DNA from: Pleurocapsa sp. CCALA 161
GTDB lineage: Bacteria > Cyanobacteriota > Cyanobacteriia > Cyanobacteriales > Xenococcaceae
Reading direction: 5' to 3'
Length of the DNA stretch: 64,000 nt
NCBI RefSeq assembly: GCF_003003995.1
Contig: NZ_PVWF01000007.1
Coordinates: 1-64,000 of the forward strand
Position numbers and translations under genes: made by a program. A model generated the notes under the pieces. That model searched no databases. It saw only the letters and a program-made list of their open reading frames with translations, and had not been told where the DNA came from. Positions 60,525-62,631 of this stretch are shown here, piece after piece. The first letter of the stretch is position 1; the number at the start of each line of letters is the position of its first letter.

Positions 60525-61193
60525 ATGGCGATTAACCAAGTATTCTTTTATATCCCCAATCTAATTGGCTATGTCAGATTTATTTTTTATCTAGCCAGCT
60601 TTATTAGTCATAGTTTAGGTTACTGGCAACTGTGTATTGGACTATATGCGATCGCCTTTATTTTAGATGAATTTGATGGCCGAGCTGCTCGTGCCTATAA
60701 TCAAAGTAGTAATTTTGGTGCTGCCTTAGATATGGTGGCGGATCGTTCGGCAACAGCGGGTTTATGTCTGATTTTGGCACAGCTATATCCTCATTATTTA
60801 TTAGCATTTATTGGCGCGATCGCCCTTGATATTAGCAGTCATTATTATTTAATTTACGCTACAGGAATGCGGGGATCAGCCAGTCATAAAGATTCGGCTC
60901 AATGGTCGAATAATGCATTACTGAAGCTTTATTATGGCAAAAAACCTTTTATGGATTTGCTGATTCTGGGTAATGAACTATTTTATCTCCTACTATATCT
61001 TGATTTTTATCTAGTAGGAATAAGTATAAATTTAGCTGGCTGGCAGACAAATATTTGGCAATTATTGCTAATAGTTTTCTTGCCAATTTATTTATTGAAA
61101 CAGGCGACTAATATTCTTCAGCTACAGGCAGCAGGACAAGAAATAGCCAAACTAGATTTAATTAGTCGTGAAGCTAAATCGGCAACTGAATAA
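60525..61193 (+). CDS. CDP-alcohol phosphatidyltransferase resembling eukaryotic phosphatidylinositol synthase
   Basis: A 222-residue membrane enzyme. The catalytic motif D-x2-D-G-x2-A-R-x8-G-x3-D-x3-D is exact: Asp48, Asp51, Gly52, Ala55-Arg56, Gly65, Asp69, Asp73. Beyond this generic motif the sequence follows animal/plant phosphatidylinositol synthase as I recall it: FYIPNLIGYVRFIFYLASF at the start, GRAARAYNQSSNFGAALDM, GMRGSASHKD and LLILGNELFYLLLYLDFY near the end, and the size is the same (human CDIPT 213). Bacterial PG and PS synthases do not have these segments. The likely reaction is CDP-diacylglycerol plus myo-inositol to phosphatidylinositol; an inositol-like alternative head group is possible. 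HIP1 sites (two in the gene) show long residence in this genome. ATG at 60525; 90 bp after the peptidase. Confidence 0.88.
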   Translation: MAINQVFFYIPNLIGYVRFIFYLASFISHSLGYWQLCIGLYAIAFILDEFDGRAARAYNQSSNFGAALDMVADRSATAGLCLILAQLYPHYLLAFIGAIALDISSHYYLIYATGMRGSASHKDSAQWSNNALLKLYYGKKPFMDLLILGNELFYLLLYLDFYLVGISINLAGWQTNIWQLLLIVFLPIYLLKQATNILQLQAAGQEIAKLDLISREAKSATE

Positions 61194-61221: not shown

Positions 61222-61260
61222 TATCCAGCCTCAATCATTTAAATCATTTAAATCATTTAG
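61222..61260. repeat. Short AAATCATTT tandem repeat before the glutathione synthetase gene
   Basis: About three tandem copies of AATCATTTA-type units lie just upstream of ATG 61276, inside the 82-bp gap after the phosphatidylinositol-synthase-like gene. The effect on expression is unknown. Confidence 0.6.
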
Positions 61261-61275
61261 TCATCTAGATCGCTG

Positions 61276-62631
61276 ATGAAACAGTACCCTGAAGCAGACA
61301 TTTCCAGCGCAGTGGATCTTGCCCTGGCTTGTGCCTTACTACAACGCACTCAGACGGGAGACTTAACCCATTGTCCCTTAATGCTTTCACCAGCTATTAT
61401 CACCAACCTGTTGATTACCCAACTAGAGTCTTTAGCTCAACCTTTAGCTCTTTTAATTCATCGAGTAGCCAACGATTTAGATTTTCTGGTAGAACAGCTT
61501 CAATTTACTGCTGCTAGTGACGAGTATACGGGCTTTTTGTTATCTCTAGCTCAAGAACAACGTCGTCAAGATAGTTTGCGGTTTTCTCTTACCCGCAGTG
61601 ATTACTTCATGACGCAAACAGACGGCTTACGCCAAGTAGAATTTAATACTATTGCCGCCAGCTATATCGGTTTATCGGAAAAAATCACCGAATTCCATAA
61701 AATATGGGGTAATCTTCAGAAAGAAACCTGGGACTTGTTACCTAATCAGCCAATCGCTGCCGTTGCTGATGCCTTTGTGACGGTGATGAAGGAGTATAAT
61801 GTTTTAAATGCTTGTGTGCTGTTTGTGGTTCAAGCTAACGAGCGTAATGTTTTCGATCAGCGTCTTTTAGAAATCGCCCTGATTGAACGGGGTATCAAAG
61901 TTGTACGCGCTAGCCTCGAAGCAATTGGCGAACAGGGAGAAGTACGTCAGGGTCATCTCTTACTTAACGGTGAAATTGCTGCTATTACTTATTTTCGAGC
62001 GGGTTACCGTCCTGATGAACTCGAAAGCAAAATAGCTCGTCAAGGTCGTCAGTTAATTGCTCGTTCAACGACAGTTTCTGTGCCAGATTTACCAACTCAT
62101 TTAGCAGGAACTAAGAAAATTCAGCAAGTATTAACGAATCCTCAACTGTTAAAGCTCTTTCTTGACGAAGAGGATATTGCTATAGTTAGAACTGCCTTTG
62201 CCCAGATTTATACTCTTGATGTGCAGATTAAATTTGAAGGCAAAATGATGCTAGCCAAAGAAGCAGCTATTTTACAACCAGAGCAATTTGTGCTTAAACC
62301 CCAGCGGGAGGGTGGCGGTTTTAATCTATATGGTGAAGATTTGCGTCAATGTCTACAAAATCTACCAGCAGAAGCAGGTAACGCATACATTTTAATGGAA
62401 CGACTATATCCACCTGTGTCTCCTGGCTGGGGTCTAAGGGATGGAAAACTCTGGCAAGGACAGGTAGTACACGAAATTGGTCAATATGGTATCTTAATTG
62501 CTCATGGCGATCGCATTTTAACCAATCAAGCAGCAGGTTATCTCGTGCGTACTAAGCTTGGCGAGATGAACGAGGGGGGTATATCGGCGGGATATGGACA
62601 TCTCAACAGTTTGGTTAAAAGTAATACCTAG
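61276..62631 (+). CDS. gshB: Eukaryotic-type glutathione synthetase
   Basis: A 451-residue ATP-grasp ligase that joins gamma-glutamylcysteine and glycine. It follows the eukaryotic GSS family, not the ~320-residue bacterial GshB: TRSDYFMTQTDGLRQVEFNT with IAASYIGLS, ANERNVFDQRLLE, AAITYFRAGYRPDE, HLAGTKKIQQVLTNPQLL, FVLKPQREGGGFNLYGEDL (ATP/Mg loop), AYILMERLYPP and the end VRTKLGEMNEGGISAGYGHL. Human GSS (474 residues) has matching text at each of these places as I remember it; one Gly-loop Asn is Phe here. I use gshB only as a functional label; the protein belongs to the GSS lineage. ATG at 61276, in line with the PI-synthase-like gene. Confidence 0.92.
   Translation: MKQYPEADISSAVDLALACALLQRTQTGDLTHCPLMLSPAIITNLLITQLESLAQPLALLIHRVANDLDFLVEQLQFTAASDEYTGFLLSLAQEQRRQDSLRFSLTRSDYFMTQTDGLRQVEFNTIAASYIGLSEKITEFHKIWGNLQKETWDLLPNQPIAAVADAFVTVMKEYNVLNACVLFVVQANERNVFDQRLLEIALIERGIKVVRASLEAIGEQGEVRQGHLLLNGEIAAITYFRAGYRPDELESKIARQGRQLIARSTTVSVPDLPTHLAGTKKIQQVLTNPQLLKLFLDEEDIAIVRTAFAQIYTLDVQIKFEGKMMLAKEAAILQPEQFVLKPQREGGGFNLYGEDLRQCLQNLPAEAGNAYILMERLYPPVSPGWGLRDGKLWQGQVVHEIGQYGILIAHGDRILTNQAAGYLVRTKLGEMNEGGISAGYGHLNSLVKSNT

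Follow-up and report, generated by a model that had tools for sequence, protein, structure and literature searches.

A eukaryotic-type glutathione synthetase in place of GshB in a few cyanobacteria, probably of bacterial origin

Cyanobacteria use gshA and gshB to synthesize glutathione (GSH), and glutathione synthesis is thought to have begun in this group, with GshA probably arising there (2023 review, PMC10295655). Both genes appear to be essential in Synechocystis (PMC10295655). The window analyzed here, the whole 64,000-nucleotide stretch of DNA from Pleurocapsa sp. CCALA 161, encodes a glutathione synthetase (GSS) of the type known from eukaryotes. This locus raises the question of whether GSS has taken over the second step of glutathione synthesis from GshB and, if so, where the gene came from and what became of gshB. 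The gene and its two neighbors are:

60525..61193, + strand: CDP-alcohol phosphatidyltransferase (PI-synthase-like; PF01066), upstream neighbor
61276..62631, + strand: GSS, eukaryotic-type glutathione synthetase, complete, ATG start, 451 aa
62699..64000, - strand: argS (PF00750, PF05746), partial in the window, convergent neighbor bounding the GSS site

Identity and predicted activity of the synthetase

The protein was originally predicted to belong to the eukaryotic GSS lineage, and profile searches bear this out. The window GSS matches TIGR01986 (NCBIfam glut_syn_euk) with 351 bits, above the cut-off of 329.8, and it contains both Pfam domains of the family, PF03917 nearly in full (E 3.8e-81, positions 27–361 of 363) and PF03199 (E 5.8e-23, positions 1–107 of 107). 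All of the motifs on which the prediction was based (LAGTKKIQQ, FVLKPQREGGG, AYILMER and GGISAG) are present in the translation, and no significant match of the protein to TIGR01380, the canonical GshB family, was found. The closest solved structures are those of potato GSS (5oes) and human GSS (2hgs), and the soybean and yeast enzymes were also recovered. An AlphaFold model generated from 35 bacterial sequences has a mean pLDDT of 92 and superposes on human 2hgs with a TM score of 0.92.

Three sites were located in the gene by homology and conservation:

61594..61647, + strand: RSD...E-x-N substrate/Mg site (R107, D109, E122, N124), roles by homology to human R125, E144 and N146
62287..62322, + strand: ATP-grasp glycine-rich loop FVLKPQREGGGF (K341, E345), by conservation
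62548..62595, + strand: C-terminal lid RTKLGEMNEGGISAGY, with S437 at the position of human A462

The catalytic and ligand-binding residues of human GSS, which we take to be R125, E144, N146, R267, Y270, K305, K364, E368, N373, R450 and K452, align with conserved counterparts in the window protein (R107, E122, N124, R241, Y244, K280, K341, E345, N350, R425 and K427). The R107, D109, E122 and N124 site shows no variation across 35 bacterial GSS or in the plant and yeast enzymes, and K341, E345, the GGG and N350 are invariant among the bacterial and eukaryotic GSS compared. Human N372, also in the loop, is replaced by F in five of six cyanobacterial GSS and by S in that of Trichodesmium. Taken from the sequence and the modeled fold, the window GSS is predicted to be a working glutathione synthetase that would join gamma-glutamylcysteine and glycine at the expense of ATP.

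In fission yeast, changes at the glycine site and neighboring positions moved specificity to beta-Ala or Ser, and the homoglutathione synthetase of soybean carries Leu-Pro (PMC3473041) in place of the Ala-Ala pair of the EGGVxxG motif. The window protein reads EGGISAG at this motif, with a small Ser-Ala pair, and an assignment as homoglutathione synthetase was rejected. Because the glycine-site residues stay small and the Leu-Pro pair is absent, glycine is the likely substrate. The serine at the human A462 position does fall within the glycine site, in the region that altered specificity when changed in fission yeast, and would suit an enzyme that makes another gamma-glutamylcysteinyl tripeptide (with serine or beta-alanine, for example) rather than GSH. 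However, the retention of small residues speaks against such a product, as does the millimolar GSH content of cyanobacteria (PMC10295655), and we consider it very unlikely.

Distribution relative to GshB and loss of gshB from its old locus

The gene was also proposed to stand in place of the usual GshB, and a genome-wide check for gshB and gshA agrees with this. In the window genome, nothing exceeds the TIGR01380 cut-off for canonical GshB, while gshA_cyano is present (691 bits). The top GshB match, at 60 bits, is a RimK-type ligase and not a hidden second GshB; a further match of 23 bits lies within an 886-aa frame that is probably cyanophycin synthetase. Since gshB is missing and gshA is kept, GSS would be the sole recognized second-step enzyme for glutathione synthesis in this genome.

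GSS is rare among cyanobacteria. In a sample of 292 genomes of the phylum, the window genome is the single carrier, and within the order only 6 of 388 genomes from three genera carry the gene (four in the window's genus, plus G427 and G557, apparently a Symploca and a Trichodesmium), so that, as had been supposed, the enzyme is not standard in this clade. GshB above the cut-off is found in none of these six carriers but in 358 of the 382 other genomes (Fisher p 1.3e-7 across the 388 genomes, a value that ignores kinship), and no genome with both enzymes was seen among the 388. The 30 genomes without GshB over the cut-off are the six carriers and 24 others, many of which are incomplete assemblies. 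The 13 genomes of the window's genus divide without exception: four have GSS and no GshB, and nine have GshB and no GSS. Symploca, Trichodesmium and G313, a carrier of the window's genus, are metagenome-assembled genomes with completeness of 81–95% (G313 81%, Trichodesmium 85%), for which absence of gshB carries less weight unless the old locus was read. The pattern is wider: of 14 GSS carriers inspected for it, SAR324 and gammaproteobacteria among them, none has GshB over the cut-off, a negative that weighs less for the SAR324 records, which come with no stated completeness.

Two genomes are worth recording separately. G051 (single contig, 99% complete, same order) has no GshB match and is not among the GSS carriers. 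One GSS-carrying gammaproteobacterium (L173 1369–1755, - strand) has a short gshB ORF from which the middle, the ATP-grasp core, is missing in frame; this is possibly a decaying relic of displacement, or else an assembly fault.

The fate of gshB can be read at its old locus. Relatives have the ancestral arrangement grxC-gshB-DUF2499-DUF3593-prfB (we assigned the DUF and prfB names from the ORFs). In the four GSS genomes of the genus gshB is absent, and the gap from grxC to DUF2499 is 53–251 bp, too short to accommodate it. In Symploca G427, grxC directly adjoins a Gfo/Idh oxidoreductase gene, beside which its genus-mate G477 has gshB. This adds Symploca as a second lineage in which gshB was cleanly lost. 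gshB has been displaced by GSS: it is absent from its old locus wherever that locus was read, namely in the four genomes of the genus and in Symploca.

Neighboring genes, origin and spread

The original prediction paired GSS with the PI-synthase-like gene as the product of one transfer event or as a small co-inherited module. The two genes are separated by 82 bp in the window and form a same-strand pair in G000, G305 and G308, as expected if a single transfer had carried both. However, adjacency is confined to these three genomes. The PI-synthase-like gene is present in 12 of the 13 genomes of the genus (at least 75% identity), nine of them without GSS, and the one genome that lacks it is G313, which is 81% complete. 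G311 and G070, without GSS, retain the same S9-peptidase gene next to it. GSS in turn occurs apart from it, adjoining phosphoglycerate-mutase-like and wzc-like genes in G313 (names from our reading of the ORFs) and lying beside other genes in Symploca and Trichodesmium. A joint transfer is therefore highly improbable, and the module reading does not survive this comparison. Judging from its distribution, the PI-synthase-like gene is an older resident of the genus and its adjacency to GSS is incidental. A clean empty GSS insertion site was not found, as G311 and G070 carry other genes after the PI-synthase-like gene. Contamination was ruled out by the gene order around GSS, argS included, which is the same in two separately assembled genus-mates (G305 and G308).

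Several further features of this region were noted. The PI-synthase-like protein carries LDEFDGRAARAYNQSSNFGAALDMVADR as a motif and scores well below every NCBIfam cut-off; outside the genus, clear identity to it is seen in just one other genome of the family. A short tandem repeat (ATCATTTAA units) occupies positions 61234–61260, in the spacer that precedes the start codon of GSS. No Rfam elements were found, and promoter and terminator scans returned no more than chance. The argS of G305 is 92% identical to that of the window, but the argS of G308 (L121 1608–3364), next to GSS, is only 67% identical, which suggests that G308 has undergone a replacement of this gene.

A eukaryotic origin, suggested by the type of enzyme, is not upheld by the GSS phylogeny. 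A scan of genome contigs yielded 40 GSS loci, of which 4 are cyanobacterial, 4 are gammaproteobacterial and 32 come from SAR324, from Lambdaproteobacteria or 'Deltaproteobacteria', or from unnamed proteobacteria. In the tree, the cyanobacterial sequences are monophyletic (support 100/100) and sit beside a SAR324 subgroup (93/79); cyanobacteria and SAR324 form a clade (99/99) that excludes plant, animal and yeast GSS. A long stem, of 0.9 changes per site, leads to the cyanobacterial sequences. Direct transfer from a eukaryote such as an alga, with the SAR324 genes acquired separately, would fit a family that is named for eukaryotes and whose solved structures, as recovered from the PDB, all come from eukaryotes. 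Yet a forced clade of cyanobacteria and eukaryotes is rejected by the AU test (p 0.0011 with four eukaryotes sampled; p 4e-6 with three eukaryotes, after removal of several long or distant rows), and identity is 38–45% to the nearest SAR324 group against 35–39% to plants and yeast. A eukaryotic donor is thus unlikely, and the source of the cyanobacterial gene was most likely bacterial, either SAR324-like or another unsampled bacterium. An enterobacterial plasmid was ruled out as the source, given 29% identity and a far branch, and no match to GSS was found among phage records or viral contigs.

Vertical descent within cyanobacteria is expected to leave similar patterns of divergence in GSS and gshB. 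Instead, the window GSS is 78% identical to that of Symploca and 77% identical to that of its own genus-mate G313, whereas gshB identity is 84–92% within the genus and 67–70% to Symploca. Because the GSS pattern, unlike that of gshB, does not follow plain descent, it points to horizontal transfer of GSS between cyanobacteria. The genus may have gained GSS either once or twice: a small species tree unites its four carriers, with weak support (45/87), but the G313 gene lies at a different genomic place. An alternative is that GSS is an ancient cyanobacterial gene that most lineages have lost and a few have kept by vertical inheritance, with reciprocal loss of gshB. This is consistent with the monophyly of the cyanobacterial sequences and with a branching order that does not contradict the taxonomic groups. 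Such a history would require the two genes to have coexisted for a long time and to have been lost very often, although none of the 388 genomes has both, and it does not account for divergence within the genus that equals divergence between genera; we regard it as quite improbable.

Displacement of GshB and comparison with known enzymes

Our preferred explanation, to which we assign a probability of roughly 0.85, is that GSS was horizontally gained, probably from a SAR324-like or other bacterial source, and displaced GshB, with gshB cleanly lost and gshA kept. A small number of cyanobacterial lineages would first have acquired a GSS-type gene from a SAR324-like donor or some other unsampled bacterium, and the gene would later have passed between cyanobacteria. 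After its arrival, gshB would have dropped cleanly out of the grxC-gshB locus while gshA stayed, leaving a pathway of GshA followed by GSS. We infer both the donor, from the sequence comparisons, and the order of events, in which GSS gain preceded gshB loss. A stronger form of this proposal, that gshB was replaced several times independently (in the window clade, G313, Symploca and Trichodesmium) by a mobile GSS that moves among bacteria and excludes gshB wherever it lands, is tentative and falls somewhat short of even odds.

These observations describe a real and well-bounded case of enzyme displacement, in which a family already known turns up where it was not expected and has taken over from a core gene more than once. 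Among the open papers searched, we found no report of this displacement of a glutathione synthetase gene, nor any paper on SAR324 GSS as a gshB replacement. A clean swap to a different enzyme family in more than one lineage shows that this core step is replaceable, and it offers a natural test of whether the GshB and GSS families are interchangeable. It also shows that the 'eukaryotic' GSS family has a bacterial reservoir, which matters for how the eukaryotic enzyme arose, and a mobile bacterial GSS, if real, may be relevant to the same question.

The window GSS can be compared with four known systems. With the eukaryotic GSS/GSH2 enzymes (TIGR01986; human 2hgs, potato 5oes, yeast 1m0t) it shares a whole-length family match, the catalytic residues and a predicted fold like that of the potato and human enzymes (TM 0.87–0.92), but it is only about 32–39% identical to them, has a cyanobacterial host, groups with bacterial sequences in the tree, and has GGGFN in the loop where they have GGGNN. 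Cyanobacterial GshB (TIGR01380, grxC-gshB locus) is expected to catalyze the same step, from gamma-Glu-Cys, Gly and ATP, but belongs to a different ATP-grasp family, and its gene is the one that was lost. The GSS-like protein of enterobacterial plasmids is a distant relative on a long separate branch, with KNQGEGGG in the loop in place of KPQREGGG; such remote proteins (29% identity) occur in 351 plasmid records, mostly from E. coli and Salmonella, and in one annotated record the gene (L095 5965–7401) has arsC and a helix-turn-helix gene as neighbors. Nearest in the tree outside cyanobacteria are the GSS-type genes of SAR324 and Lambdaproteobacteria, which belong to another phylum and are 35–45% identical, and the genomes of this group that were checked lack GshB over the cut-off, as the cyanobacterial carriers do.
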